DNA from: Pascua guehoae
Taxonomy: Eukaryota; Basidiomycota; Tremellomycetes; Trichosporonales; Trichosporonaceae
Assembly: GCA_001600415.1 (NCBI GenBank)
Contig: BCJX01000002.1
Location: 481,341 to 545,340 of the forward strand
Direction: 5' to 3'
DNA: 64,000 nucleotides
Shown in pieces: positions 11,215 to 41,040 of this stretch. The notes below the pieces were generated by a model. The model ran no database searches, was not told the DNA's origin, and saw only the letters and a list, made by a program, of their open reading frames with translations. Each line of letters opens with the position of its first letter. Position 1 is the stretch's first letter. The translations under genes and the position numbers were made by a program.

Positions 11215-11302
11215 CCGTTGTACCCTGCATTTCCTGCATGTGCGTGCAGCCAACACCCAAGCTGAATGTGGCAGTCTCACGACTTTCGGGATACACCTGT
11301 AC
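11215..11302 (-). mobile_element. Partial copy of the inverted-repeat element at 29.4 kb
   Basis: The segment GCTGAATGTGGCAGTCTCAC through CACCTGTA is closely similar to the reverse complement of one end of the 29432-29652 element, including internal sequence (GTACCCTGC.TTTCCTGCA versus GTATCCTGC.GTTCCTGCA). I find only this end, so the copy is truncated or its other end is too diverged to see. Confidence 0.55.
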
Positions 11303-11780
11303 CTGTCTATCTCTTCCTGTCCATTCCTTCCTCATTAACTTGGACAGTGTTCCCAAGCTGTTCCGCCAAGCTTGGGTCCCCAATGTGCGAGAAATTGACT
11401 TGTTTGGGAAGAGTTGCAGGGATGTTCAATGTGTTGTAGAAACTAGAGGACGGAGTAACATGAAGAACAGTGCTCCAGAGATCTACCCGTAAGAGTACCG
11501 GCGCGCCAGGCCGCGCATGTGGCACAGCCACAGGCACTGTCTCTATTACACCATCATGGCATTGAGGTACTGACACTCAGATACTCAATTTCCATCCTTT
11601 AATCCAAACTTCCTTTCTCATTGACCACCACATGTTAGTAATTTTAATTCATCTGGTATGGCACAAGCCATCCCGACGGCGGCCTCTAGATTGTCCGCAC
11701 CCCTAGTACTTAAATAGCCTCGCTCGTGCCCATATCTCTGTCACGCAACGTCGTCTACAACATTCCCGACCCCGTTCCCC

Positions 11781-23316: not shown

Positions 23317-25176
23317 ATGGGCGGCTCGCCCAGCAAGCCGCCTGCGACGCAGCTCATCAGCGCCGAGCTGCCCGGGTGGACCTTCCGGACCGATGCACAA
23401 CGCGCCGCCGTCCTCCCGCCCGAGCTCGTGCACAGCATCGCCCTCTCGCTCGCATGGTCTGGTGATCCGCGGGCACGGGCGACGCTGGCGGCACTGCAGG
23501 CGACCTGCCAAGAGTACTATGACCTAGTCAATCCCATCCTGTACACTACGCTACGCGTCTCGCCGAAAGCGGGCCCGCTGCTCTCGCTCGACGTCTCGCG
23601 CTTCCCCGCGTCCGTGTCGCCAGTGACATCTCCGCGCGGCACCAGCACGGGACTGAGCGGCGCATGGTCCCCGTCGCGCACCGTCCTCCGCATCCTCGTC
23701 TCCCTGTCGCATGTCGAGACACTCGTCATCACGGCCCTCCCTGCCGACACGGACGGGGCGCACTTTCTAACCGCAGCCCGCACCCTCGCGTCGGCGGGCC
23801 TCGCCATCTTCCCCCGCGTCAAGACCGTATCGCTCCTCGCACCCGCGACTGACCAGCTGCGTACTTGGCAACCCGAGTTTTACGCACGCCCCGTCCTCCC
23901 ACCATTCCTCGAGGCCGTGTCCATCTCATGTCGGCCACGGCACTTGTGCTTTGCCTTTCCCCTCGTCGCGGACCGCGACTATGGTCAGGCTGCGCAGGTC
24001 ACGTCCCCGGGCGCGTATGCGTTTGCGCGGCGTGTGCAGCTCTTGGCCTCGAGATGGATCCCGGCGACATCTGGGTCTCCTACGCGGGCTGGGTCTGAGG
24101 CCGTCTCCCGGCAGACGACCACGAAGTCCGTGCCCCAAAGCCCCATAGACAGCACCACAGTGAACGCCGCGGAGACCGCACTGGGGACGACCACCATGGA
24201 GAGCAACACGGAGAGCGCTGTGGAGAGCACCAAGAGCAACTCGAGCAACATGGGGACAACGTTGGAGACCACCAAGGAGACAACACTAGAGGCATCAGAC
24301 ACACCCCCACCCACACCGTCGCGGGGAACCCCCAAGCTGGCAGTTGTGACAACCTTGCCCGCGGCACCCATGACCCCACACCGGCCCACCTCTGAGTCTA
24401 CGACGAATGCGACCCCCGAGAAGTCTGCCGCGACTCTGCAAGATCCCACCTCGACCAACCAGATTCTACCAGAGATCACCACCGAGCCCACGCCCATGGG
24501 CGGCCCCAGCCCTCACCGATCTCCCATTTCCCGCGGCCTGCAGTCCGTCGCCTTCCACAACATCACCTCCCAGGTCCTTCCCGCCCTCCGCACCATCAAC
24601 CACTACCACTTTGCCCCCGCCCACCCCTCTCTCACGGGCAAGTACGCATCCCGCACACCCGGTCCCGTCCCCATGACGCACCGCGCATGGCAGCTGGTCC
24701 CTGCCGTCGAAGCGCTATTGCGCTCCTGGGACGCGCCGGTCGACCACGACGCCGTGCTCGAGCGCACCCGCTGGGTGATGCACGGCGTCGAGCGGGGCGT
24801 GTGCGTGAGTAGGCCCTCGGTTCCTGCGTCGCCCACGCCAACGCCCATGCCGACGCCCCCGCCGCGTGCGTCTCGGCCCGCCCTCCGGTCCGTATCCTCG
24901 TCTCCGCGGACCGTGTCCTCGTCCTCATCGTCCACTCTGGCGTCGACCTCAACGCCCTGCTCGGTCCCCAAGGGCGGGACAACGACAAGGGACAACATTA
25001 TCACCCTCGCCGAGAACGATGTTCGCCGCGCGCTGCGGGGGATCCAGAACGACGTGCCCGATCCGGGCGCGTTTGTCGAGCGCGTCCTCGGTCACATTGT
25101 GTATGCCGGCGAGGAGGCGTGTTTGGCGTGTGCGAGTGAGTACTGGGGAGGAGACGGCCCCCTGCTTGAGTGGTAG
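23317..25176 (+). CDS. F-box-like protein with Ser/Thr-rich insert, 619 aa
   Basis: Single-exon gene. The N-terminus has AAVLPPELVHSIALSLAW, a degenerate F-box-like start, then ATCQEYYDLVNPILYTTL. It is a paralogue of the protein at 157-1500: compare LLAPATDQLRTWQPEFYARP with LLPHAVGQWRTWTPDDYTRP, and VLPALRTINHYHFAP with ILPDLQTRNVYHFAP. Relative to that paralogue it carries an insert of roughly 150 residues, mostly Thr, Ser, Glu and Pro (ALGTTTMESNTESAVESTK and similar), between VQLLASRWIP and LQSVAFHNITSQ. A second Ser/Pro-rich tract (about residues 505-560) lies before the C-terminal FVERVLGHIVYAGEEACLAC, whose Cys pair matches the paralogue. Function is unknown; substrate-adaptor activity is only inferred from the F-box-like start. 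It borders the large gene-free repeat region. Confidence 0.75.
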   Translation: MGGSPSKPPATQLISAELPGWTFRTDAQRAAVLPPELVHSIALSLAWSGDPRARATLAALQATCQEYYDLVNPILYTTLRVSPKAGPLLSLDVSRFPASVSPVTSPRGTSTGLSGAWSPSRTVLRILVSLSHVETLVITALPADTDGAHFLTAARTLASAGLAIFPRVKTVSLLAPATDQLRTWQPEFYARPVLPPFLEAVSISCRPRHLCFAFPLVADRDYGQAAQVTSPGAYAFARRVQLLASRWIPATSGSPTRAGSEAVSRQTTTKSVPQSPIDSTTVNAAETALGTTTMESNTESAVESTKSNSSNMGTTLETTKETTLEASDTPPPTPSRGTPKLAVVTTLPAAPMTPHRPTSESTTNATPEKSAATLQDPTSTNQILPEITTEPTPMGGPSPHRSPISRGLQSVAFHNITSQVLPALRTINHYHFAPAHPSLTGKYASRTPGPVPMTHRAWQLVPAVEALLRSWDAPVDHDAVLERTRWVMHGVERGVCVSRPSVPASPTPTPMPTPPPRASRPALRSVSSSPRTVSSSSSSTLASTSTPCSVPKGGTTTRDNIITLAENDVRRALRGIQNDVPDPGAFVERVLGHIVYAGEEACLACASEYWGGDGPLLEW

Positions 25177-25984: not shown

Positions 25985-26440
25985 ACTCGGTGCGGCGCAG
26001 TCAGGGCTGGAATGCGGATATCCAAAGAGTGATTCTGACGTCTCTCTTGGCAGTGAACTGACGCTTGGGGACTGGTGCCACTGCGTCGTCCCCCTCGCTA
26101 GCCTCGCTGCTTTCGGTGACCGTGGTGACCTCGCCGAGCCACTAACCAAGTCCTCGCTATCCAACCCGCTATCCAACCCTCGCTGCCCGCTATCCAGCTC
26201 TCGCTGAAGCAAATCCCGTGGGATCGAGCAGAGATCTGTGCTATTCCTGCCAGGAATCAGTAGTTCCGGCACTCGAACGCACCAAGGTACAAACAGGCCT
26301 GGAATGCGGATATCCAAACGGCGATTCAGAGGCGCCAACCGATATCCTTGGCGTTGAACTAGCGCCTTGGCACTGGCTCGCACAGACTCCTCTCACTCGC
26401 TAGCCTCGCTGTTGTCGGCGACGTCGCCGAACCACACTGA
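25985..26440 (+). repeat. Diverged tandem duplication, about 310-bp period
   Basis: Two blocks share GGAATGCGGATATCCAAA followed by G.G.GATTC, then CTTGGCA..GAACT, a GCACTGG or GTGCCACTG word and TCGCTAGCCTCGCTG ending near CGCCGA.CCAC. The first copy begins near 26010 and the second near 26305. Confidence 0.65.
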
Positions 26441-26769: not shown

Positions 26770-26850
26770 ATTGGCCATGACTACTGGACACGATCCCACT
26801 GGCCCAGACACTACACGTCGGGCCCGAACGAAACACAAGATTAGATACCC
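26770..26850 (-). repeat. Composite element copy a (minus, partial)
   Basis: In element orientation: GGGTATCTAATC (26850-26839), TCGGGCCCGA near 26818-26827 in place of TCGGCCG, and GGCCAAT (26776-26770). The GATTCA part is not recognisable at the expected position. Confidence 0.5.
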
Positions 26851-27104
26851 CCAAAGCCAACCGCACGCAGGGATGTGGTCAAGACGGCCGCTGGAGGAGG
26901 GCAGGGCGAGCGAGCAGGCCCCGCCAAGCCTGTCGAGGACGTTCGAAGCTGAGCACTTCGCCGCAAGTGACCGCAGCTCACTGCGCCTCACCGAACCCAC
27001 CGCGGCTCACTGCACCTCACTGCACCTCACCGCAGCTCCCCGCAGCTCACCCCCTATCGGCCGTCAAAGCCAAGGACGTGGCAACCTCTGAATGGAGAGT
27101 ATGG

Positions 27105-27164
27105 TGAATCAGCGTGCATCCCATTGACTTGGGTCGCGGCCGACGAGACGAGATTAGATATCCC
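27105..27164 (-). repeat. Composite element copy b (minus, complete)
   Basis: In element orientation: GGGATATCTAATC (27164-27152), TCGGCCG (27143-27137), GTCAATGG (27128-27121), GATTCA (27110-27105). All four parts occur within 60 bp; the CCAAT-to-GATTCA offset is 17. Confidence 0.75.
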
Positions 27165-27880
27165 AATGCCCCAGCCTGCGGCCGAGAGCACACCCTCTCG
27201 TCGGCCCAGTAGCCGTCTCAGTAGCCTCGCTCCGCAGCCCGCGTAGTGGCCCGCAGAATAGTTGTCGTCTCGGCACCTCCTGGTCTTCACATTTGCTGCA
27301 CGGTGGTGGTTTTGAGCAGGTGGACTCGTCGGACGGGATAGGTTCCCCATGTTCCCCATGCGTCGGACAACCTCTTCCTAACGTGTTTCTCGCGTCGCCA
27401 CGACTATTCTGCGGGCACCTGTTTCATGTGGTGCGATTGTGATGGTGTAATGTGTGCGGTGGTGCGTGCCGTTTGCAGTCGTGTGCGGTGACTGTGTCGT
27501 GTCCCTGTGCGTGTGGCTGCACGCCACGAGCCACGATCGGACGTGTCCAACACGTCGTTGCTGGAATAGAACATGTGGCTAAACGCATGACGGACCCTGT
27601 ATGAGGACCAGCATACGCGTGAATGAACGATGTGTATACGAATGCCCGATGTAAATCAGTAGCGTCGTTGGTCGTCTTATCGGCCCCGCGACAGCGACGA
27701 CACGCGTCTGTAATAGGACACGCTCTCAGCCGCGTCCCCAGCGACATGTTCATGAAGCGAATCCGCCGAGATGCCCTCTCGACGGTATTTAGGATACCTT
27801 TTGGGTATATGGATAGCGCGGCTTCGTGGTGCTATTACAGCGTCCGTCAGACTGGCGAGGCCGGCCTAGTCGCGAGCAGG

Positions 27881-27946
27881 TGAATCGGCGCGGACGGTAT
27901 TGGTCCCCCTCTCGCGCCTGAAGACGACAGATGTCCACCCGGCCGA
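27881..27946 (-). repeat. Composite element copy c (minus, three parts)
   Basis: TCGGCCG (27946-27940), ACCAATA (27904-27898) and CGATTCA (27887-27881) in element orientation, with the CCAAT-to-GATTCA offset again 17. No clear TATCTAATC upstream. Confidence 0.6.
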
Positions 27947-28360
27947 AGTGAGGCATGACAAATGCGCAGGTTGGGATAGGGCACGACGTCGCCCCGCGCA
28001 GCGAGCACAGAGCACGCTCTGATGCCGCCTCAGCGCCGTGAGCGTGTGATTTACCGGCTGCCAAGCTCGCCTGCCTAGCTTGGTAGCCTGGCCAGTGTCA
28101 ACAGACGCGTACTGTGCGGCCGAAGTGCACCCTCGAACGCGTGATGGACCGCTGGGGTCGATTTGGAAACGTGCCTACCCATCCGCGAGACGTCATAAAC
28201 CAGACGGAACGCACAGGGCGGTACGGCGCCGGTGCACTGTCAGCACGCGTTGGTCTGCAAACGACCACGGCGGAGGGCACAGCCCCCTGCCGGGTGCTCG
28301 TTCGGCCCCGGCCACATTGGCCAAGCTGGCTCGGACACGCTAGCTATCCCGCGGTGAGGG

Positions 28361-28414
28361 GGATATCTAATCTGTCGGCCGCAGGACGGGACCAACGGCG
28401 TCCCCACCAATTCA
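28361..28414 (+). repeat. Composite element copy d (complete)
   Basis: GGATATCTAATCTG (28361-28374) abuts TCGGCCG (28375-28381), then ACCAACGGCGTC (28391-28402) and CAATTCA (28408-28414). Offset between the CCAAT-like box and the GATTCA part is 17. Confidence 0.75.
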
Positions 28415-28645
28415 GCATGGGCTTGGCGTGACCCGTCCCCATGCCCACAATACGCCTGTGTGCCGTCGACGTCCGTTTGGCATCTGGCCCCACGCGATCA
28501 GGCGTGGGATATTGACTCGTGTCCGATTGACGTTGCTCGCTAAGACACAGATCTCACGTTGGTTATCTTGGCATTCCATCTCGCTCGTATCCAATGCTGA
28601 CACGCACGTTTAACGTCGCATTTCGGCCGCTGGAACAGTGGTGCG

Positions 28646-28707
28646 GGTTATCTAATCTGTCTCGTCGGCCGGGGAAGTGCTGCGCCAATGGCGTCCAGGC
28701 CGATTCA
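28646..28707 (+). repeat. Composite element copy e (complete)
   Basis: GGTTATCTAATCTG, TCGGCCG (28665-28671), GCCAATGGCGTC (28684-28695), CGATTCA (28701-28707). The cleanest copy; offsets are 19 from TCGGCCG to the CCAAT box and 17 from there to GATTCA. Confidence 0.8.
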
Positions 28708-28879
28708 GCAGGGCGGTGCACATTGATGCAGTCAACTGGGGTCATGTTGTGAGCTACCGAGTGCCCCCCCGCACTCAGGTCCATCGATCGTGTCTCGGGA
28801 CGTGGAGGATGCAAATTATCCAATACCAGGACCCAAGGCCGGTCGCGTTGGACGCGCCGGGCTCCCGTCTGCATTCTAG

Positions 28880-28969
28880 GGATATCTAATCTGTGGCTAC
28901 TGTACGTGTTCTGGGTCGTGTGTGTTCGGCCCCGGAGATGTATGGCCAATGGTGCCGTTGCCGATTCAC
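28880..28969 (+). repeat. Composite element copy f (complete)
   Basis: GGATATCTAATCTG from 28880, TCGGCCC (28926-28932), GCCAATGG (28945-28952), CGATTCAC (28962-28969). Offsets 19 and 17, as in copy e. Confidence 0.75.
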
Positions 28970-29337
28970 AGTTGGGACGCGGCTTGGCTCTGGGGCTCGG
29001 TGTGGACTGCGTTGACCAGCTGGCACGTTGATGATCACCCTGGAGCCCGTGACGGCCGAGTTAGAGGGGCCGGACGCAGAGGGTGCCCTGTTGCGCGGCT
29101 TGGCGACCACCGTGGGGGCGGGTACGTCGACCATGGCCACTGCTCACACGTCGTGTCCTATCCCGAACACGCGCCTCATGTCCAATGTATGTGAAAATGG
29201 AATGCGAGGGGCAGGGATGCCATGGCATGCTGCTCTGACGTGCTGCTGAGATGAGCGTTCCGCAGCGCAAGACAAGTAGCACCCTGCGCCCCTCAGGTCC
29301 CTTTGACACAGACTGTAGACTCCAGTTGGCGTCGTTG

Positions 29338-29378
29338 GGTATCTAATCTCCGTCGGCCGCATGGGTGCCACCAATACC
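29338..29378 (+). repeat. Composite element copy g (three parts)
   Basis: GGTATCTAATC (29338-29348), TCGGCCG (29353-29359), CCACCAATACC (29368-29378). The GATTCA part is not recognisable. Confidence 0.6.
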
Positions 29379-29431
29379 GTCACCCTCACCGCTCAGACGT
29401 CGCAACCAGACCACCCTGACAGACGCCGACA

Positions 29432-29652
29432 CGTACAGGTGTGTCCGGAAAGCCATGAGACTGTCACATTCAGCTCGCGTACGCACACGGCGCGTATACG
29501 GGGAGGCGTGCAGGAACAGCAGGATACAAGCAAGCAGGAAACATCAGTGTGTACACTTGCTGTGCATTGTATTGGTCTAGAGAGTGTCCCTGCGCAACTT
29601 GGACTAGACCGTCAAAGTGACAGTCTCAAGACTTTTCGGACGCACCTGTACG
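29432..29652. mobile_element. 221-bp MITE-like element with 36-bp terminal inverted repeats
   Basis: The left end 29432-29467 (CGTACAGGTGTGTCCGGAAA ... GAGACTGTCAC) and the right end 29617-29652 (GTGACAGTCTC ... CGGACGCACCTGTACG) are inverted repeats of each other over 36 bp with a few mismatches. The inside (about 150 bp) has no coding capacity. If the true ends are CAGGTG/CACCTG, the element is flanked by TA on both sides, as in Tc1/mariner-type insertions; that class is an inference. A truncated relative lies at 11215-11302. Confidence 0.7.
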
Positions 29653-29918
29653 GCGTTCAGTGCCATCTTCGGCCGCAGCGCTGCCCAACCACGCAGCCGC
29701 GGACTGTCATTATGCGACGGGTGAGCGCTTGGATGTGGTACGCGTCGCTCGTCGTTCATTGACGGGTATTTTGGGTGCGAATGCAGGGCTGCCTCGCCAG
29801 CCATGACTTTGCCAGAAAATAGCACTCAACATGTGCGTGTTCTATTTCGACGTGTTCGATGGTGGCTGGTGGCGTGGTGGCTTGGCACCGTTCGGCCGCG
29901 TGCTTCCGGTGCACTTCT

Positions 29919-29993
29919 GTATCTAATCTCGCCACCAAGTTGACATTGTCGGCCGTGAGACACCGTGGGCAATAAGCTGCGCGCCGATTCACC
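29919..29993 (+). repeat. Composite element copy h (complete)
   Basis: GTATCTAATC (29919-29928), TCGGCCG (29949-29955), GGCAATAAGC at the CCAAT position (from 29968), CGATTCACC (29985-29993). Offsets 19 and 17. Confidence 0.75.
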
Positions 29994-30353
29994 TGGGCCT
30001 GCGCCATCGTGTCCTGCGCCATTCAGAGCCTGCCACGTTGGAGACTGCGCCGTGCGGCCGACAGAGGGTGGGCGGTGGGGAGGGCGTAGTTTCGACCTCG
30101 CCGACAGACTTGGCAGCGAGTGCTTGTTCCCCTGCTAGTGGCGCTTTCCTCGTTAACGCGTCTTGGCCGTGCGAAATGCACATACGTCCACCTCGGCTCT
30201 TGGACTCGGATCGAGCAGCAACAGGGACAGGGTAGCGGCCCGTGCCAGCCTGTCGGTGCGCGTCGAGGTCGGAATGCGCGCCGAGTTCGAATGCGCGTCC
30301 ATGTCATGGCCGACCAACGTGTAAGCGAGGACCCGCGTGTCAGCAGCGCCTTC

Positions 30354-30407
30354 ATTGGCCTCGCTCTGCGGCCGAACGACACCAGAGGCACAGACCAGAT
30401 TAGATAC
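30354..30407 (-). repeat. Composite element copy i (minus, three parts)
   Basis: GTATCTAATC (30407-30398), TCGGCCG (30375-30369) and GCCAATG (30360-30354) in element orientation. The GATTCA part is missing. Confidence 0.65.
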
Positions 30408-30532
30408 TGCACCCCGCCCGCTTCCGACTGCTCTTGCTTCGCGGCTGGGCGCTTGTCTGCACTGAGGTCCACGGCATTCGGGGGAGCGACGCAGGCGACT
30501 CCGGTGATCCCTGCGCGTGTTGGCGGCCGCAA

Positions 30533-30590
30533 TGAATTAGTCACAGTACTATTGGCCCAACATGGAGCATGCGCAAGTGATTAGATACCC
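30533..30590 (-). repeat. Composite element copy j (minus, three parts)
   Basis: GGGTATCTAATC (30590-30579), GGCCAAT (30557-30551) and TAATTCA (30539-30533) in element orientation, with the CCAAT-to-ATTCA offset 17. No TCGGCCG between. Confidence 0.6.
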
Positions 30591-30675
30591 TCTGACGAAC
30601 ACGAGCGCGCCACGTCCACCATCGTCCACCACGGCCGGACCGTCTTGGCCCACCACACCTCGCTTCGCTGGCGAC

Positions 30676-30700
30676 TGAATCAGCCCAGACGCCATTGGTG
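30676..30700 (-). repeat. Composite element copy k (minus, two parts)
   Basis: CACCAATGGC (30700-30691) and GATTCA (30681-30676) in element orientation with offset 17. Confidence 0.5.
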
Positions 30701-31101
30701 CGTCCCTCGTACCCACCCGCCGCCACAGACCGCCGCCACAGACCACCGCCCACCGCCCACGGCCCGCCGGCCACCGCCACCGCCCACCAAGCACGCGTCC
30801 ACGCGTCCACTTCGGGTCGATCAGACACGGCCAGGATCCGTGTGGCGCCGTCCACGTCGACACACTGATCGGCGCCCGGCCGAGGCGGTGACTACCGATC
30901 CGCACCGTGCTTGGCACTGTGGCCCCCGAGGCAATGCCGTGCCAAGCTTCCTGCCGGGGTCACGGCGTGGCGGCCGGCGGCTGCGCCAACTTGGGGGCAT
31001 GTAGGCTACGCCAACGAGAGCTGGGAAGCGGCGGGCCCGAACGTAGAGTTGCGGGGGCGGGGTGCGTGTTCTGCGGTGACTTTTGTGGACCCGTGCGGGG
31101 T

Positions 31102-31121
31102 GGGGGGGGGGGGGGGGGGGG
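31102..31121. repeat. 20-bp poly-G tract
   Basis: Twenty consecutive G, preceded by GGGGT. Confidence 0.9.
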
Positions 31122-31224
31122 CAGTACGTCAGTGGGTGTGCAGGTGCAGAGGGCGCAGAGGGTGCAGAAAGTGCACACGAGTGTGCGTTGCGGTGCATGC
31201 GGTGAGGTGTGGCAGCGTGTAGCG

Positions 31225-31375
31225 TCGAGCAGGCGTACTGTAGCAGCATGATGCAGCGTGTACCGTAGCAGTGGGGAGCCGCGCGCAGCAGCGTGCAGCA
31301 GAGCGTAGCAGTGTGTAGCAGCGTGTAGCCGCGTGCAACAGAGTGCAGCGGCGCGCGACAGAGTGGTGCAAGGAC
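31225..31375 (+). repeat. Degenerate GCGTGTAGCA satellite
   Basis: Short units of about 9-11 bp (GCGTGTAGCA, GCGTGCAGCA, GAGCGTAGCA) repeated irregularly. Confidence 0.6.
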
Positions 31376-31793
31376 GAGCTGGATTGCACGAGGGGCACGT
31401 ATATCCTCACCGCAACGCGCAAGGCATGAGCAAAGGAGGAAAGGAGCACTCGTGACGTACGCGTAGCCAGTGGTGGCGGCATGGTCGCCGTCGACGCGTC
31501 ACGACGCGTCACGTCGATGAACTCGCTCGCCAAGAGCCGCGCACACGAACCCGAACGACGAACAGCGAGCAAGCTCGAACGACCTAGCGAGCACCACGGC
31601 CGACGCCCGCCCATATCCCGCCCTTCAGAGCACGAGCGTCAACACCCCGGACCCCCCCACCAAGATCCGTTCCAAGACACCAAGACCAAGACATCCAAGA
31701 CACCCAAGACACCCATCCCCATCCCAAGACCACGCTTGGCCCGAAACACCCCCCGGGGACGGCCAACCACACGGCCCATATTCCACACCACGT

Positions 31794-31850
31794 CGAGAAA
31801 CACACCACACGGCCCATTCCCCTCGGCCGATAATCACAGTGTGTTTCTCG
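31794..31850. repeat. Perfect 12-bp inverted repeat with 33-bp loop
   Basis: CGAGAAACACAC (31794-31805) and GTGTGTTTCTCG (31839-31850) are exact inverted repeats. The loop contains TCGGCCGATAAT, a word that recurs at about 32178-32189. Confidence 0.8.
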
Positions 31851-32002
31851 CGAGTCGACCAGTGGCGTGGCGCGAATAACACACGTTGGAACGGTCGGGC
31901 TCGGCCCTGATCTATTGATAGCTCGGTCGGGCGAAGCACACATCTAGACTACATAACGGACGGGTGGATGGGACAGCTGGGTGGCGGGGGCGGGCGGGGC
32001 GG

Positions 32003-32140
32003 NNNNNNNNNNNNNNNNNNNNNNNNNNNNNNNNNNNNNNNNNNNNNNNNNNNNNNNNNNNNNNNNNNNNNNNNNNNNNNNNNNNNNNNNNNNNNNNNNN
32101 NNNNNNNNNNNNNNNNNNNNNNNNNNNNNNNNNNNNNNNN
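32003..32140. other. Assembly gap (138 N)
   Basis: Run of N flanked by G-rich sequence (GGGCGGGGCGG and GGGGCTGGGG), consistent with a collapsed poly-G or GC-rich tract. Confidence 0.95.
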
Positions 32141-32394
32141 GGGGCTGGGGCTCGGCGCGCGTCCGCCCGACGAACGGTTCGGCCGATAATGTGCCAAGCC
32201 GCAAAACGATAAACGAGACCCGAAAGAAGAGTCACACGACGTAGACCGACTGCGGATGCGCAGAGGTCAGTGGGCCAATGGGAGGCGGTGCATTACTACG
32301 GCGCAGCTGGGTGGCGAATCAAGGCACGGACGCGTCGCGTCGCGTGTGCTTTTCGCGCGGCCGTATGGGTGGCTGTGGCTGTGGCTGCGGGGGT

Positions 32395-32478
32395 CTGCAG
32401 CGCACACACCGGTCTGCAGCGCACGCAGCGCGCAGCACAGCACGCAGCACGCAGCACGCAGCACGCAGCGCAGTTGGA
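32395..32478 (+). repeat. Degenerate GCACGCA satellite
   Basis: Seven- to ten-bp units GCACGCA/GCAGCAC repeated with a few variants. Confidence 0.65.
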
Positions 32479-32849
32479 GACGGGGCTGTGCATGCATCTG
32501 GCCATCTAGCGAGGTGTCGGCCGACAGCTCGCAGGAGCGTGACCCCAGCATTGGGCATTCGTCCACGTCCGAGTCCACGCCCGAGTCCCAGGTCGCCATC
32601 CACAACACGCCCGACGCCATCCATCCACACCCCACACCGCACACTGCACACTGCACACCCCTCGCCCCACACTCACCAATTACAGCCAGTGTATGTGTGG
32701 CCCTTCGGCCGGGGACGCGGGGACACATGGGGCCATGTGGGGCATCGGGCACACTGGCCCACTAGCGTACTGCAGCACTGGGGAATCTGGAGCACTGGAG
32801 CACTGGAGAACCGGGGGAGGTTCCGGTCCGCAGCCACGTTTGGACGGGG

Positions 32850-32875
32850 GCCAATGGCGGAGACCCCAATTCACC
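32850..32875 (+). repeat. Composite element copy l (two parts)
   Basis: GCCAATGGCGG (32850-32860) and CAATTCACC (32867-32875), offset 17; the TATCTAATC and TCGGCCG parts are not close by. Confidence 0.55.
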
Positions 32876-32928
32876 GTCTCGGTACGTTGCACAACCTCGC
32901 CCGATGATGGCAGCAGGGTGCGCAGCGG

Positions 32929-32993
32929 TCGGCCGTGGGACGCTTGGCATCGCCGACGCGTCGCCAGTGCCATGGCGTCGGGGCGGATTCACC
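32929..32993 (+). repeat. Composite element copy m (three parts, CCAAT box damaged)
   Basis: TCGGCCG (32929-32935), GCCATGGCGTC (from 32969, one A short of GCCAATGGCGTC) and GGATTCACC (32985-32993). The spacing from the box to GATTCA is shorter by that one base. Confidence 0.55.
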
Positions 32994-33071
32994 TCGTTAG
33001 CACGCGCGTCCCTGGGGGACAACGATCTGTGCGTCGTGTCGGCCGTGGGCTGGGTTTGGGTGGCTCGTGTG

Positions 33072-33199
33072 GGTATCTAATCTGCATGCTGCCGATGGGC
33101 TCGCTGCTGGCAGTAGGTTTGGGCGAGCGACATGGGCATTGTGGGTGGGCCTGCTCGGCCGTGGTGATTGCGAGCCAATGACGTAAGCCCCTATTCACC
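33072..33199 (+). repeat. Composite element copy n (complete, long first spacer)
   Basis: GGTATCTAATCTG from 33072, TCGGCCG (33155-33161), GCCAATGACG (33174-33183), CTATTCACC (33191-33199). Offsets are 19 and 17; only the first spacer is long. Confidence 0.7.
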
Positions 33200-33733
33200 G
33201 CAACGCCCGGCGTTTACACCTGGCGCGGGTCCAGTCTGGCGGGGCGGTCGAGCAGGGCGAGCATCGTTGCGCTGGTCGGACCCGGAGGGTGGGGAGTGTG
33301 CTCGCGTGCTCACTAGTTGGTGTGTCTGTTTGCTCGTGGCTCGTGAGCATATACAATTGAACCGCCTCAAGCTCCACGAGGCCCGAGAGCTTGCCACAGA
33401 TGGACTGAACGGATCTGCTATATACAATGATGCTCGTGCTGATTCATGGTCATGGCGGCCAAAACCACCAGAGTGGTGAGCATGAGTGCCTATTAGCTTG
33501 GCCACGACCACTGGCCTCGACTTTTTGCCCATGTTGTCACACAAAGTCTTCCAGTGCAATCTCTCACGACCCGAGCTGTGCATCGCACATTATCGTCCAC
33601 GTCTACTCTACTGTTCTACAGAATTCCACTTGACTTGATCATCTCCGACCATTCTGTCATGGCCCTCTTGTCCCATCCTCTTCACACCTTACTCCATCCC
33701 TAGGTGCCACCATGAGCTATCCCCCAAGAGGCA

Positions 33734-36700
33734 CTACCCACGGCCAGGATAATAATTCCCGCGCGTGGGCACACTCTCTCCCGGCCGTAGGACCGGCACA
33801 CTGACGCCGGGAACTGGCACGGGCCGCCTCGAGCCGAGTGGAGGCATGATCGGCAGCGCGAGGGGGAGACCGAGGCCACCAGTTCCATATCCGAGGCCCA
33901 TGGACCGTCCGGGGGCGTACGAGCGGTATTGCATAGGACTGGATGTCAGCGCTGGCAAATAGAGTTGGGGATGTGGGAGTGGCAGTGGAGGTGTATTGGG
34001 AAGGGTGTTCGCAGGGCATCAAAAGCAATTTCGAGCAAACGTCACGAGGGACGCCTGTCCGACATGTACAAGATGGAAGCAGGCCAGGGCGACCCACGCA
34101 CACTGGATGCGGTGCCCTTGGCATGTACGCGGGCACAAGTGGCACTTGATATGCGGGCACAAGTGGTGCTTGATACGCGGGCACAACGGGAGCTTGGTAC
34201 GCTGGCACATACGGAGCTTGGTACACTTGGGGTTGCGGATAGTACCCCGCTCCGGGCACGGGCATTGGTCGCACAACAGGCGCGGTTGGGACAAGGTATG
34301 GATGGGGTGGGACAGAGACGGGAGGCATCGGAACAGGGGGCGCTACGTACCGCCATGCCGGAGGGGGCCCTGCGACGGGGGCAACGGGAGCCGCCACGGG
34401 AACGGGCGCAAAGCCTGGGGCCGGAGGTGCGCAGTAGTAGTCGTCAATGTCGGACGGGAGGCGGTGATGCCTGTCGCTGTGGGTTAGGTCGAGGTTTATG
34501 AGATAGGTGAACATCAACTCACCGGTGCGAGGACTTCCGGGGCGACGAGTCGCGGTCATCCTTCTTTGACCTGCGAGACTCCTTGTCGTCATCCTTGTCC
34601 TTGTTGTCCTCACTCGTGTCCGACTTGGACTTGTTCTTGGGCTCCTTGACCATGATGTAGCCATCGTCGGACGAGGCGGATGACGACGAAGGAGCCGTGA
34701 CAACAGTAGCCGCCTTTTCACTCTTGCTGTCGTGTTTCGAGTGCTTGGACTTTGTCGACTTGGACGACTTGGCCGACTTGATCGAGGCGCGGTCGTCGTC
34801 CTTGGAGACGATCGAACGGCGATCGGCGTCCTTGTCGCCCTTTGTGGACTTGTCGTCCTTGTGGTCCTTTTCAGATTGGGCCTTCTTGTCCTCCTTCTTG
34901 GCCTTCTCTCCCTCCTTGGCCTCGGCCTTCTCCTTCTCGGCCTTCTTCGCATCCTCCTTCTTGTCCTCTTCCTTCTTCTTCTCCTTCTTCTCCTCCTCCT
35001 TCTTCTTCTCCTCCTTCTCCTTCTTGTCGTCCTCCTTCTTCTTCTCCTTCTTCTCCTCCTTCTTGTCCTTGTCGTCCTCCTTCTTCTCCTCCTTCTTTTC
35101 CTCCTCCTTCTCCTTCTTCTCCTCCTTCACCGGCTCCTTCTTTCCCTTTAACGACACATGCACCTCGTCGCCATGCACCGAAATGTCAACCGTCGAATCC
35201 TCGAGCGCGGACGTAGCCTTGACAGGCGACTTGACGCTCTTGACAGACTCAGCCTTGACGCTCTTGACCGACTCGGCCTTGACCGACGCGGGGGCCTTCT
35301 TGGGCGACTCCTTGGGGCTGGGAGCCCGAGGTGCCTCCTCAGTGCTGACCTTGACGGTCGTGCCAGCATTCGTAATGACAATTTCCTGCTGGGAAGGCGG
35401 TGGCACGGCTGCAATCGAAGTACGCTTCGACACTGGCGAGTCCTTGACGGACGGAGCCTTGGGTGTCACCCTCTCCGTCCTTGCCTCGTCGGGCTTGCCA
35501 ATCTGAACAGTGGCACCATTGACCGTGACAGTCACGTCCTGCCTGGGGACTGTGGGGGGCGGCGTCAAGGGCTTGGACGGTGCCTTGACGGGCGACTGGG
35601 GACGTGAGGGCGCAGGGGACGCCAGTGGGGAAGGGTGGGTGCGGATCGCAATGCTCGTCGTGCCCCGAAGAGCGGCTGCCGTCGCAGAGGACGCGCTAAC
35701 GGAGGGCGACTGGGTATACTTTGCCGGAGAGCGAGCGGGAGACATCGGTGGGGGCGAGTTTGAGCCACGCAGGGCAGCAGCCGTTGCAGCTGAGGCAGAG
35801 ATGGTGATTGCTGATGCTCCAGTGGTGATGCGCACCGGCTTGGGGGAGAAGGGCATCGCGGCCTTGTGTGGGTCGCGGGGAGATTCATGCTCTTCTGGCA
35901 CAGGGGCGGGTGCGACCGGGGCAGGCGTCGCCGGGGCTGGTGGCACAGGGGCGGGTGCGACGGGGACGGGAGCCACGGGGGAGGCGACCTTCGAGGGTGA
36001 CCTTGGCGCAGGTGCCGCCTTTGGCTGTGGGGGCGGTGTCTGCGGCTTGGTGGCCGACGGCACCCTCTGGTGCCGCTTGGAGCTTGAAGACTTGCGCTGC
36101 GTAACCGAGGGGATAAACGCCTTGTAGTCAACTGCATGTCAGCTATACGACCCAGTGCTGGTGAACATACCCATCTTGATCGGCTTGAGACCACCGCGCG
36201 TGCCCGCGGGCGGAGTAGCGGGCTTGGGCGGAGGCGTGGGAGCCTTGGTCGGCGACGATGGCCGCCTCATGGGCAGGGTCGGTGACTTGAGAGGAGGAGT
36301 TGGCGCTTTAGGAGGAACCTTTGGCGGCGGCGTCGGCGCCTTGACGGACGGAGGACGCACAGACTTGGCGGGGCTGGCCGGCCGGGGAGACGGAGACGAG
36401 CGCGGAGACGAGCGTGCTTCCGCATGGGTGGCAACATTCGCCAGTGCGCTCTGCACTGCCGCCTGCGCTTCGGCGAGCGGCACCATTGACTCTCGCTTCG
36501 AGCGAATGGATGATGTGCGCTTGGAAGGTGTCTGGATCGACCGCTGTGCTGGAGCAGGTGATGCCACGACCGGTGCAGGCGCTGGTGCGGGCGCGGGTGT
36601 CGGCGCTGGTGCAGGTACTGGGGTGGGTGCTGGCGCAGGTGCTGACGCAGACACTGACACAGGTACAACAACCTGCTGCACATACTGTACAGGGGCGTTG

Positions 36701-39486
36701 TGGACGTACTGCGACTGAGACCGGGCTGATGGTGCCGGCGTGACGATCGGCACAGCAGGAGGGGGCGGTGCCGGCGTGACGACTGCCACAGCAGAAGGCA
36801 GCGGGGCCTGTGCAGCTGCGGGCGTTGGCAGCGTCACATACGGCCCGCGCGCGGGTGTTGGGGCGGGCGACAGGCCGAGCATGGGCGTCTCGGGCAGCGG
36901 GATGCGACGCGGCGACGGTGCCTCGTTGGGGAGAGGGGGGAGAGAGCGGTGTGACATCTTGGACTCGTTGTCGGCGCCTTCAGGGGTAGTGGGGGCGGTG
37001 TCGATAGGAACGGGCTCGAAGGGGGGTTCTTCAGGCTGAGCGTCTGTAATAGGGACGAGTGCGACGGTACCAGTAACGGCTGGTTCGGACTCGGGTTCAG
37101 TAACTGGAGCAAGAGTGACCAGTTCTGGAGAGCAAGGTTCAGTCTCGGGAACAGACACTTCTCCGATTTGCGCGCCGATGACTGGGGCAAGGATTGCGGG
37201 CTCGGCGGGGAGTTCGGACTCGGGATCAGTGGCCGGTGCAAGAGCGATCGCCGTAAACACAACGGGTTCGAGCGCGGGCTCTTCCTCGGGCTGAGAGACA
37301 GAAACTGGTTCGACAGCAGCAACTGGCTCAAAGGCAGAAACTGGTTCGACAGAAGCAACAGCTGACTCAGAGGGTTCTTCCTCGTCGGGGTTCGTGTCGG
37401 TGACAGGAGCGAGCAGGATCTCGGGGAAGACGATGACGGGCTCGACCTCGGACTCTACCTCAGACTCTACCTCGGGAGTCTCGGTGGAGGAAATGAGCGT
37501 ATGAGAAGCACTGGGTTCAAGGGCGACAGGCTCAGGGTCAAAGTCCTCGGTCGCAGGGGCGAGTGTGACAGAGGTGGTGGGTTCTGGTTCGACCGCGTCT
37601 GTGGCTGGCGCAAGAGCGATGGATTCACGCGACTGATCAACGACCTCGGTACAAGGCGCTAGAGTGACAGGCTCCACCTGCGGCTTATCACCAACGGCAA
37701 TAGATTCTTCGGTCAAAGGCGACGAGTCAATCGAGTTGGTAGAAACCGTATGGCTGTCGTCGACACCAAAGTCGCTCACAAAGGCTGGAAGCTCCGGCGC
37801 CTCGAGGAGGGAATAGTGGTGGTTTGACGGAGGCTGATAGTCAGACTCGGGGCCGATATTGACGAGAGCCGCGAGAAGTTCGATGGGCTCGGCGGGGAGG
37901 GGTTTCTCCTCGCGTTCGTACCGTGCGGGCGAGGGTATTGGCGCAGGGATGCGGTCAACTGCCCGGGGTGGCGCGTAGTCGATGGCGGTGATCGGGGGAC
38001 GTGAAGCGCGCGAGCGACTAGACGCGAGAGAAGCAGCGGGCGACGATGTGGTCGAGCCAAATTGGTTGATAATACTGCTCGACTTGATTGAGGGCGTCGG
38101 TGACGGGACAGTCGTGGCAGGAGCCGACTTTGTCTTGCTAAAGATCTTGGGCAGGGGGAGTTTGCTCAGACGCTTCTGCTTCTTGGGGCCGAGGGACTCT
38201 TTGATGGTGGGAAGGCTGAAGACGTCGTCTGGAGCCTCAGAGGGGGCTTCTTCCACAAGGGGAAGACTGGGAGAAGGAGGAGAGTGACGCGAGGGCGAGT
38301 GGATGAATGAACCGCCAGGCGAAGAACCTGGTGAGTGGCCGGGGAAGGGCTCTCCTAAGTGGCCCGGGGTGCGATGGTTGTCGTTGTGGTGGGTGTTTTG
38401 CGAGTTCTTGCGAGTGCGGAGAGAACGGAGACTCTTAAAGCTCGCAAGGGACCCGATACTATTTGCACGCTTGGGAGCAGACTCGTGGACTGCGGGTGGA
38501 CCCGAAGAAGTCACAGAAGGGAGACCCTGTGGGGCACCGGTGTACGAGTAATGTGAATGGAACGAGGCCGGGCGCGCCAGAGAAAGTGAGGCAAGCGGCT
38601 CGTTGGACGAGTTGTGCGACCTCGAGCGGGGCAAGGAAGGACGCGAGTTGAGCCTCGTGCGGACCGACTGCGGTGGTGTCTTTGGCGGTGAGTGGTGGTG
38701 CTCGGTTGGGTCGGTCTTGCTCTTCCTCGGTGAGAAGCGCGAGGAGGACGTTGAACGGCGCGAGGTAGATACAGGCAGTGACTGCGAAGTGAAGGGCAAC
38801 GAAGACTTTTGTGCGGGTGCTGGCTCGTTTAGCAGGAAGTCGCGCCAGTGCTCGCTGCTCTTGTTACCGATCTCGTCTTCCTCGTCGTCGGCGTCGTCAA
38901 ACTCGTCAAACTTGCGGTTGCGTTCGGGCTCGGGTGGCGGGTTGCGCACAAAGACGGGCTTAAACTTGGCGGTGAGCGGCGTGTCCTCGCTGAGGTTTGG
39001 AGGGATCTCGAGTGTCTCGCCAATGTCCTCAATTTCTTCGGCGAGGCTGCGTGTGCGGCTGTGACGCGACGTATCGCTGTCACTGGGTGCGCGGCGGTAG
39101 GAGAGTGCGCTCGAAGCAGCAGAACCTGGACCGGCGCTTTTGGGTGCCTGGGGAGACTCTTCCGGCTCAGCCGACAGAGGTGTGTAGGGCGAGTGGGGGT
39201 GGGAGCTGCGTGGCTTGAGAGAAACCTCGACGACCTTGTCACCGTCGTCGTCCAGAACGGTGATGATAGGCTTGCTCTTGTCGTCGTCGGACGAAAGGTT
39301 GAGGAAGAGGCTTGCCTTGGGGCTTGCCCGTGGGCTTACTGGACTGGCTGCCCTGAGCTGGGCGGTGGCGGGGTACACGGGGGTGTTACCGGTCACGAGG
39401 CCGAGGGTGGATTGGGATGCCGGTGGGTTGGTGGGCAGTGGGTGGGAGAGGCTGGTGGAGCGTGCTGGTGGTGGGAGGAGTGACAT
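33734..39486 (-). CDS. Large disordered Pro/Ser/Lys/Glu-rich protein, 1834 aa, 4 exons
   Basis: Exons 36171-39486, 34523-36131, 34102-34476 and 33734-33938 sum to 5505 nt, an exact 1835 codons, which supports joining three frames into one gene. I recognise no domain. N-terminal half: Ser/Pro-rich with basic and acidic patches and an acidic segment (FDEFDDADDEEDEIGNKSSE). A middle region repeats a [VI]xLAP[AV]T[DE] motif about eight times in a Glu/Pro/Val background. Then Pro/Ala-rich tracts, SxxK/PSKAPTPP repeats and a strongly charged Lys/Glu tract (KKEEKKEKEEKKEEKKEDD and similar) near residues 1390-1500. Exon 3 has a VPAYQAP repeat (four units) and exon 4 ends YYPGRG. The last intron is 163 nt. 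Role unknown; scaffolding, cell-cortex or nuclear roles are all possible. Codon use of the charged region creates long antisense open frames that are not genes. Confidence 0.75.
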
Positions 39487-41040
39487 TGTGAAAGAATTGA
39501 TGATGAGTGTTGAGAGGGAGGGCAGTGGGGGGCGGACAGGCTCTGGGGGTACGGTGGGGGCGAGGGGGCCAAGGGCGCGGCGGTGGGTACTGGGTGGTAG
39601 TTGCTTTGTGGTTGGGGCAGGCCTTTACGGGTGTCCGTATGGGTGGGGGGGGTTTGGGGGGTGGATAATGTGGGGATGCGAGAGGGCACCGAGGGACGCG
39701 AGAGACGCTTGGACCGCCTTTACCTTATTGTCCGTTGTGATTCGAGGTGCACACTTGTGGGACAGGACACAATACAGACTGGTCGGATGAACATGGGCGC
39801 CCGACAAGTCCGTTCTGTGTACTCTGCTTGGTTTGCGTGTGTAACGGTCGAAGACGCGTTTGTGGGTTGGGGATCGCAGACAGGATGGACAGGGCGGCAA
39901 GCAAGCTAGTGGAGTGGAGACGAGATGCAGAGGTGAGGTGGTGCGTGTACAAAAGTTCGAGAATGGGGCGGCTGTCGTTGGGTTGATCTGGCGTTTGCGT
40001 TTCAGTCGTCGGTCGTGTTGATGGGTGGTGCTATTGTCGTTGTGCTGGGGAAGGAGGGGAAGGGTTCCGAGGTTTGGGTTCTGTTTAAGCTGTTGTCTCG
40101 TGATGGTGGGTCGATGCGGACAAGACGTGTAGGGTTGTCAGTGAAGAGGGGAGCAACAGCACGACAGGACGGCAGTCTCCGCAAAACACCCTCTGTACCT
40201 CCGAACTTTGCTATCGGCACAGGTCCTGTCCCACCTCTCTGTTCCCGGTCCACACGTCAGAGACCACAGGCCACAGGTCACAGGTCACAGGTCACAGGTC
40301 ACAGGCCGTAGGCGACAGGCGACAGGGCCGCGGCGTCGCCCGGCCCCGGACCCCGGTGCGTGTATTTGCGCGTTGGGTATTCGCCCGCCAGATCATGGGT
40401 GAAGGGAATGCACCAGTGTCGGCCTGTCGGAGGAGCATGGGAGCAGGGGGGTAGGATGTGGAGGGGAGGGGTTGATTGTGGTTGCCGATGTGCTTTTGCG
40501 GTCGGACCTCTGTGGGAGGTTTGGTTTGGACTGTGTGCACTATTGTTGGTCATCGGGAGCGGGAGGGATCGGCGTCGGCGCTGCGGAGGTCATGGGCTGG
40601 CCAAGGCAAACCAAGGCAAAAACAGCCAGGTTCCAGCCGCAAGCCTCCTGTCAGGGGATTCGTGTCGACCTGTCGAGACATCGCGAGACATCCACTCGCC
40701 AACCCAGCCGTACTGGACGCTTTTGACCGCCAGCGAGGCTGATTCCGAGCACGACAAGCCACGGCGGTGCGGGAGAAACATATTCAAGGAAGAGGAGGAG
40801 GAGGAAGAGGATGATGGAAGATTCCAACCCGAGTTCATCCAGTCAGAAATATGACCATGCCCACAAGCCACGAGCAACGCTTGTTTCAAGTTTCGACCCC
40901 GCACAAAGCTCGTCCATGACGTCACCCAGCAACCGCCTTTCCATCACTCTCAAGACTGTTCTACATGACATGGACATATGGACATGCTTACAACATGATA
41001 CTACTATACTGCGGGGGCATCTCAGTCTCTAACATACGCT
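39487..41040. other. Intergenic region with 7-bp microsatellite
   Basis: Promoter side of the disordered protein gene and 3' side of SLX4. Contains the short AGGTCAC array listed separately and a GGA-rich stretch near 40790. No gene seen. Confidence 0.6.
40265..40305 (+). repeat. AGGTCAC heptamer array
   Basis: Five to six tandem copies of the heptamer CACAGGT with one variant at each end. Confidence 0.85.

Follow-up and report, generated by a model that had tools for sequence, protein, structure and literature searches.

The sites closest in design to the element described here are those of fungal iron genes. One report gives CSAATN12RWT as the site of the CCAAT-binding complex (CBC) with HapX and ATCWGATA as the site of SreA (PMC10602907), and another describes a bipartite arrangement of CCAAT, spacer and submotif in which the bound CBC would extend over the spacer and the submotif is contacted by HapX (PMC4232046). 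Here we describe an array of composite motifs at positions 26,770 to 33,199 of a 64,000-nucleotide stretch of the Pascua guehoae genome (C2:481341-545340, C2 being contig BCJX01000002.1; the whole stretch is termed the window). As in the CBC:HapX sites, a submotif that starts with RWT stands at N12 after the CCAAT box in 10 of its 11 modules, but the array has a longer, invariant ATTCA, extra CGGCCG and AGATTAGATA sites, and a dozen copies in one stretch that appears free of genes. Among other systems, homotypic clusters of transcription-factor sites, as in enhancers, likewise place many of the same sites within a few kb in both orientations, whereas what is repeated here, in a yeast and where the neighbouring genes have their 3' ends, is a multi-site module whose sites keep their order and a rigid spacing. 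The endoplasmic reticulum stress response element of NF-Y and ATF6, CCAAT-N9-CCACG, also sets CCAAT and a partner at a fixed distance, although both the spacing and the partner word differ. Nematode pairing centres share with the array a single cluster of a short motif on one chromosome; in contrast, the array consists of composite promoter-like sites, and the likeness is one of arrangement. A literature search returned no account of such an array, which is not proof of absence.

Results

The composite motif array is real. It is built from four words, labelled A (TATCTAATCT), B (CGGCCG-type), CCAAT as the third, and D (ATTCA). The word TATCTAATC occurs ten times at 26.8-33.1 kb and nowhere in the remainder of the window, and the A word, with at most one mismatch allowed, has ten matches in the window (nine exact), all within 26838-33083. 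When CCAAT was paired with ATTCA on the same strand within 100 bases across the 6.5-kb region, seven of nine pairs had an offset of 18 bp, the remaining two, at an offset of 3, being the word CCAATTCA, which occurs twice. With one or two altered letters allowed in CCAAT, 11 modules are found at offset 18; they align without gaps over 26 bp (consensus RCCAATGGCGTCnnnGCCGATTCACC), with CAAT, the C at -3 and ATTCA near-invariant. The constant spacing claimed by the first-pass annotation of this DNA is thereby upheld, its value of 17 having been measured to the base before ATTCA. The copies are as follows:

26838-26847, minus strand: A word TATCTAATCT, partial copy; CCAAT 73 bp after A, no CGGCCG between, no D
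27103-27160, minus strand: A (27160), B (27142), TCAAT-ATTCA module at 27103-27128
27879-27945, minus strand: B (27945), module at 27879-27904, without A
28361-28416, plus strand: A, B 12 bp on, CCAAC-ATTCA module at 28391-28416
28646-28709, plus strand: complete copy; A, B, module at 28684-28709 (top score)
28880-28970, plus strand: A, TTCGGCCCC (a B variant), module at 28945-28970
29337-29389, plus strand: A, B, CCAAT, without D
29920-29993, plus strand: A, B, GCAAT-ATTCA module at 29968-29993
30354-30406, minus strand: A, B, CCAAT, without D
30531-30587, minus strand: A variant TATCTAATCA, module at 30531-30556 (lowest leave-one-out score)
30674-30699, minus strand: module alone, A and B absent just upstream
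32850-32875, plus strand: module alone
32930-32993, plus strand: B (32930), module at 32968-32993 with GCCAT replacing CCAAT
33071-33199, plus strand: complete copy; A, B 82 bp on, module at 33174-33199
33423-33448, plus strand: weak module-like site just beyond the array; the best background match has the same score, 14.4

At least 14 copies had been counted previously. About 14 are indeed present, but this number takes in partial ones: all four words are exact (D being ATTCA) in two copies only, 28649 and 33074, and four more (27160, 28364, 28883 and 29920) are complete with one altered letter. The reported distance from TCGGCCG to CCAAT, 19 in four copies and 15-17 in others, stands when variants of CCAAT are included. 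Exact pairs of CGGCC and CCAAT lie at 19 bp in three cases and at 16 and 17 once each, and pairs with an altered CCAAT lie at 19 (GCAAT), 16 (CCAAC) and 15 (TCAAT); in all, CGGCC is 15-19 bp ahead of CCAAT or a variant in eight copies and at 19 in four of them. The other seven exact pairs are scattered from 26 to 95 bp. The first spacer is variable, as had been said, with A to CGGCC measuring 12-97 bp (11 pairs within 120). The fixed order was also borne out: of the 10 A words, 7 are followed on their own strand by a module no more than 130 bp downstream, and 2 have a module upstream, compared for the former with a mean of 1.12 and a maximum of 6 in 20,000 random placements; randomising strands alone gave P 0.0076. 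By orientation, the 14 units form four blocks of three minus, five plus, three minus and three plus (run test, P 0.029). Once repeat inserts are subtracted, the distance from one copy to the next is about 230-370 bp within the left pair of blocks and about 110-210 bp within the right pair.

In a leave-one-out matrix built from the copies, all 11 modules outscored every non-site in the window, and 10 of them also stood above everything in 107 kb of background, the exception being the copy at 30531-30556, which one background match equalled. When Markov models of orders 1 to 3 were fitted to the region and 500 sequences simulated from each, the counts fell far below those observed for TATCTAATC (maximum 1, seen 10) and for CCAAT-13-ATTCA (maximum 1, seen 7). 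Across 11 background loci and 7 other segments of the window, nine-letter words occurred in dispersed form at most 6 times, as against 10 here.

Two six-base palindromes are concentrated in the same region:

26885-33161, unstranded: 29 CGGCCG sites, 4.46 per kb against 0.53 per kb in the remaining window
27615-32961, unstranded: 14 ACGCGT sites, 2.15 per kb against 0.31 per kb in the remaining window

These densities correspond to enrichments of 8 fold for CGGCCG and 7 fold for ACGCGT, compared with 0 to 2.1 fold for 15 other six-base palindromes, and in a 90-kb sample of other contigs the two words occur at 0.53 and 0.36 per kb, respectively. The simulations reached 20 CGGCCG against the 29 seen; the excess of ACGCGT is the weaker one, because they reached 13 against the 14 seen. 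Two short intervals between outward-facing module blocks, 28.1-28.25 and 30.79-31.51 kb, together hold 8 of the 14 sites of ACGCGT, which is the sequence of the MluI cell-cycle box.

We then consider the array against the genome (33.6 Mb, 28 contigs, designated C1, C2 and so on). TATCTAATCT has 33 exact matches, 9 here and 24 elsewhere, the latter slightly above the 11 of the reversed-pattern control. All 24 stand singly; none has an exact CCAAT and GATTCA at the module offset within about 1 kb on either side, and CGGCCG lies within 130 bp of four. The patterns that describe the module were not spread among promoters through the genome: the long module pattern with at most three mismatches gave 6 matches, 5 of them here; CCAATN12GATTCA gave 7, of which 4 are here and 3 outside (reversed control 0; about 6 by a hand estimate from composition); and CGGCCG-CCAAT-ATTCA gave 2, both here. 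One of the three outside CCAATN12GATTCA sites, C3:579150, is about 10 kb from a HapX-type gene, probably by chance. The looser pattern TCGGCCGN5-25CCAAT gave 116 matches against 29 for its reverse; CGGCCG paired with CCAAT may therefore also serve singly at other places in the genome. Five of its matches fall within 5 kb here, and among the matches listed no more than two are so close elsewhere; the two places where two such pairs lie a few kb apart, the end of C1 and C3:1.667 Mb, have neither an A word nor an array. When three stretches of the region were used as queries in DNA searches, the matches were the region itself and dispersed or simple repeats. In the 33.6 Mb, no second array was found by these words, a search that strongly diverged words would escape. 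Beyond this genome, pattern scans matched 1 stretch in viral contigs and 9 in prokaryotic genome contigs, with one match each, which looks like chance; one of these stretches has a G+C content of 0.31 and single words. The module pattern had no match in the viral contigs, from which records near the window's own genome may be excluded.

The flanks of the copies had been called unrelated, and we agree that they show no clear similarity. Mean local alignment scores are 27.4 downstream (25.2 shuffled) and 30.4 upstream (25.1 shuffled), where the upstream stretch still includes A and B words and some neighbouring flanks overlap, compared with 21.1 against 10.0 for the module itself. Column conservation is limited to A and the module, all other columns being at chance level. 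Flanks near the shuffled level beside words that are kept suggest an old duplication after which all else drifted and selection acted on the sites. Since copies were recognised by their words, those that have lost them would be overlooked.

The array lies between convergent neighbours, namely an open reading frame (ORF) on the plus strand that ends at 25176 and, on the minus strand, low-complexity ORFs whose ends fall at about 33.7-34.5 kb, in about 8.5 kb without recognisable genes. None of the 68 ORFs scanned in the array region (of 86 of at least 70 amino acids in 25.2-33.7 kb) has a Pfam domain, a scan that would overlook small exons. Rfam gave no match at gathering level over the region and one below threshold (15.4 bits against 40). 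RNA folding z-scores had a mean of 0.35 at 13 places following D and of 0.15 at 10 places preceding A, compared with -0.19 in 40 control draws; being near zero, they indicate no structured RNA.

Discussion

That the modules form a conserved protein-binding platform, as first proposed, is a well-supported prediction, given their rigid spacing, their order and flanks without clear similarity. Our favoured reading, to which we assign a probability of about 0.42, is that of an old array of composite transcription-factor sites centred on CCAAT, kept by selection and most likely driving unannotated, probably noncoding transcripts. The CCAAT box of each module would presumably be bound by the CBC, and we consider such anchoring likely. 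The second site, N-ATTCA, 12 bp after CCAAT, would probably receive a bZIP partner recruited by the CBC, CGGCCG about 19 bp ahead of CCAAT would be the site of a Zn2Cys6-type factor, and AGATTAGATA would form a separate, flexible site further upstream. The copies would have been born by duplication of small units, after which the sequence between the sites drifted and the sites were kept by selection. The genes on either side are transcribed towards the array, which is therefore not their ordinary promoter. Because the modules point away from two centres, at about 28.2 and 31.3 kb, where 8 of the 14 ACGCGT sites lie, transcripts would probably run outward from these. For CCAAT modules that point outward and lie between genes converging on them, promoters of unstructured noncoding transcripts are possibly the simplest output.

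Several observations weigh against this reading. The top flank-pair scores (58 on both sides) exceed the top shuffled scores (43 downstream and 51 upstream), though neighbouring flanks overlap, and selection is argued from one genome only. Three A copies (26847, 29340 and 30406) are without D, and the module seems unused outside the array, with three CCAATN12GATTCA in 33.6 Mb. The orientation blocks have modest strength in the run test, and the two ACGCGT centres were chosen by eye. As to the output, there is no gathering-level Rfam match and no excess of RNA structure downstream of the modules, and no shared start signal was found downstream of D in the aligned copies.

A related explanation, which we consider doubtful, is an iron-responsive CBC:HapX platform or sponge, in which HapX would truly bind the CCAAT-ATTCA modules, and these would either titrate it or make nearby noncoding transcription respond to iron. 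The spacing equals that of CSAATN12RWT, with RWT in place in ten of the 11 modules and the whole consensus in six; CCAAT is followed by N12RWT in 8 of 21 cases in the array and in 0 of 66 in the remaining window. The genome has a HapX-type gene at C3:569164 (a 595-amino-acid open frame; Pfam PF10297 at 26.8 bits against a cut-off of 21.1), whose protein has cysteine-rich stretches by eye, and HapX is a possible, candidate partner of the module. However, RWT amounts to three loose positions, met about 4 times in 100 by chance (a hand estimate), and the contrast for the full CSAAT is weaker (8 of 29 against 6 of 118). ATTCA is longer than RWT, the A word carries T for C in all ten copies and so is not the SreA site ATCWGATA, none of the five CSAAT in the 3-kb HapX locus has N12RWT (though a large part of the promoter may lie beyond these 3 kb), and outside the array there is hardly any module. 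A distal enhancer or locus-control region for the surrounding genes is unlikely: dense clusters of several kinds of site would suit it, as would the two genes with fungal transcription-factor domains to the left (about 6.8-7.2 and 19.1-20.5 kb), but regulation in yeasts is usually short-range and both neighbours have their 3' ends towards the array. Very improbable, in our view, is a decaying satellite or repeat without present function. The diverged tandem pair at 26.0-26.4 kb and the tolerance of inserts resembling miniature inverted-repeat transposable elements (MITEs) speak for it, but neutral decay would hardly keep 10 copies of a nine-letter word intact, and 11 modules at an offset of 18 bp, while flanks are near the shuffled level, an argument weakened by the more decayed copies that recognition by those very words overlooks.

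The remaining explanations concern the chromosome. The array could be a structural element, that is, the centromere, an origin, or the pairing or segregation centre of one chromosome, built on repeated protein platforms, which we regard as improbable. Integrase matches mark centromeric retroelements in Cryptococcus. Here they occur on 13 of the 28 contigs and not on C2, which would suit such an element, as would the platforms on both strands and the convergent genes that enclose a stretch of about 8.5 kb in which no gene is recognisable; however, C1 and other contigs also have no integrase match, so that the absence on C2 says little. A motif common to all chromosomes, as the first-pass annotation had envisaged for centromeres or origins, is not supported, as neither the A word nor the CCAAT-ATTCA module nor, among the matches listed, CGGCCG-CCAAT pairs form a second cluster on any of the 28 contigs. 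The same negative result and the promoter-type site content also weigh against a structural role on this one chromosome. Two reports bear on such a role in opposite ways: Cutaneotrichosporon genomes show no obvious centromeric repeats, and centromere DNA is not settled in this part of the Tremellomycetes (PMC10568926), whereas five of six Apiotrichum mycotoxinivorans chromosomes have clear Hi-C centromere contacts (PMC8855340), beside which a motif on one chromosome would be odd. Quite unlikely, too, is a chromosome-specific nucleation platform at a single locus, where a dozen multi-protein modules would mark one place on one chromosome for pairing, segregation or locus-wide switching via noncoding transcription; the literature search returned no element of this kind in yeasts. 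Clusters of integrase domains on C3, C4, C6, C11, C16 and C20, several near contig ends, are candidate centromeric retroelement islands.

Other identities were considered and rejected. GATA factors have the consensus WGATAR. The earlier assignment of A to such a factor fails, as 9 of 10 copies have C or T where R should follow AGATA, and A reads ATTAGATA in 10 of 10, against ATCWGATA for SreA. Nor is A a splice branch point, despite its CTAAT, since several copies have no acceptor by eye; its resemblance to the ribosomal RNA word ATTAGATACCC was discounted, as nothing around it fits, and transfer RNA A and B boxes were discounted because their invariant letters differ. A structured RNA family was set aside on the Rfam and folding results given above. 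A family of small protein-coding genes was sought among cysteine-rich and CaaX small ORFs; besides the absence of Pfam domains, no CaaX end was flagged and no common peptide was seen by eye.

If our reading of a selected array of CCAAT-centred sites is right, the rigidly spaced modules would offer a dozen natural replicates of one protein-DNA assembly, whose grammar could be read from a single genome. In a yeast, whose genome is compact, an array that has no second copy or recognisable genes and is apparently under selection would point to a locus-specific control element, a family of noncoding transcription units or a chromosome mark of a kind not yet recognised in Tremellomycetes.

Neighbouring genes and other features of the window

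The neighbouring ORFs on both sides have no Pfam match, and the one ORF searched per flank had no homologue at an E-value of 0.001 among the candidates scored. On the minus strand, 34519-39624 holds a frame of about 1,700 codons with one internal stop; its product would abound in Pro, Ser, Glu and Lys and may be a disordered protein whose gene contains an intron. The window also encodes a copper amine oxidase, part of which shares 75% identity with the Vanrija pseudolonga enzyme (the best match), and is identical at 73-76% to those of Trichosporon asahii and Cutaneotrichosporon oleaginosum, and 72-75% to those of several Kwoniella. A run of 139 N at 32003-32141, with G-rich flanks, is a possible assembly gap. 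The tandem pair and the repeats in and beside the array are:

26002-26422, plus strand: diverged tandem pair in the left part of the region (26002-26120 and 26294-26422), 73% identical, each with GGATATCC and GATTC
27245-27422, unstranded: MITE-like dispersed repeat
27420-27516: dispersed repeat
27708-27840, unstranded: MITE-like dispersed repeat of 133 bp, with at least 31 other copies at 93-100% identity (40 of 353 candidates scored)
29186-29316, unstranded: dispersed repeat
29434-29651, unstranded: MITE-like dispersed repeat with 39-bp inverted ends

The tandem units may be outlying relatives of the array, and the repeat at 27708-27840 is apparently young. One of the array's dispersed repeats has a partial match at 11260-11307. 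At C16:628136-629065, C6:538573-539039 and C2:394771-395311, several of these repeats occur together or one family occurs twice, as if these were shared insertion islands.

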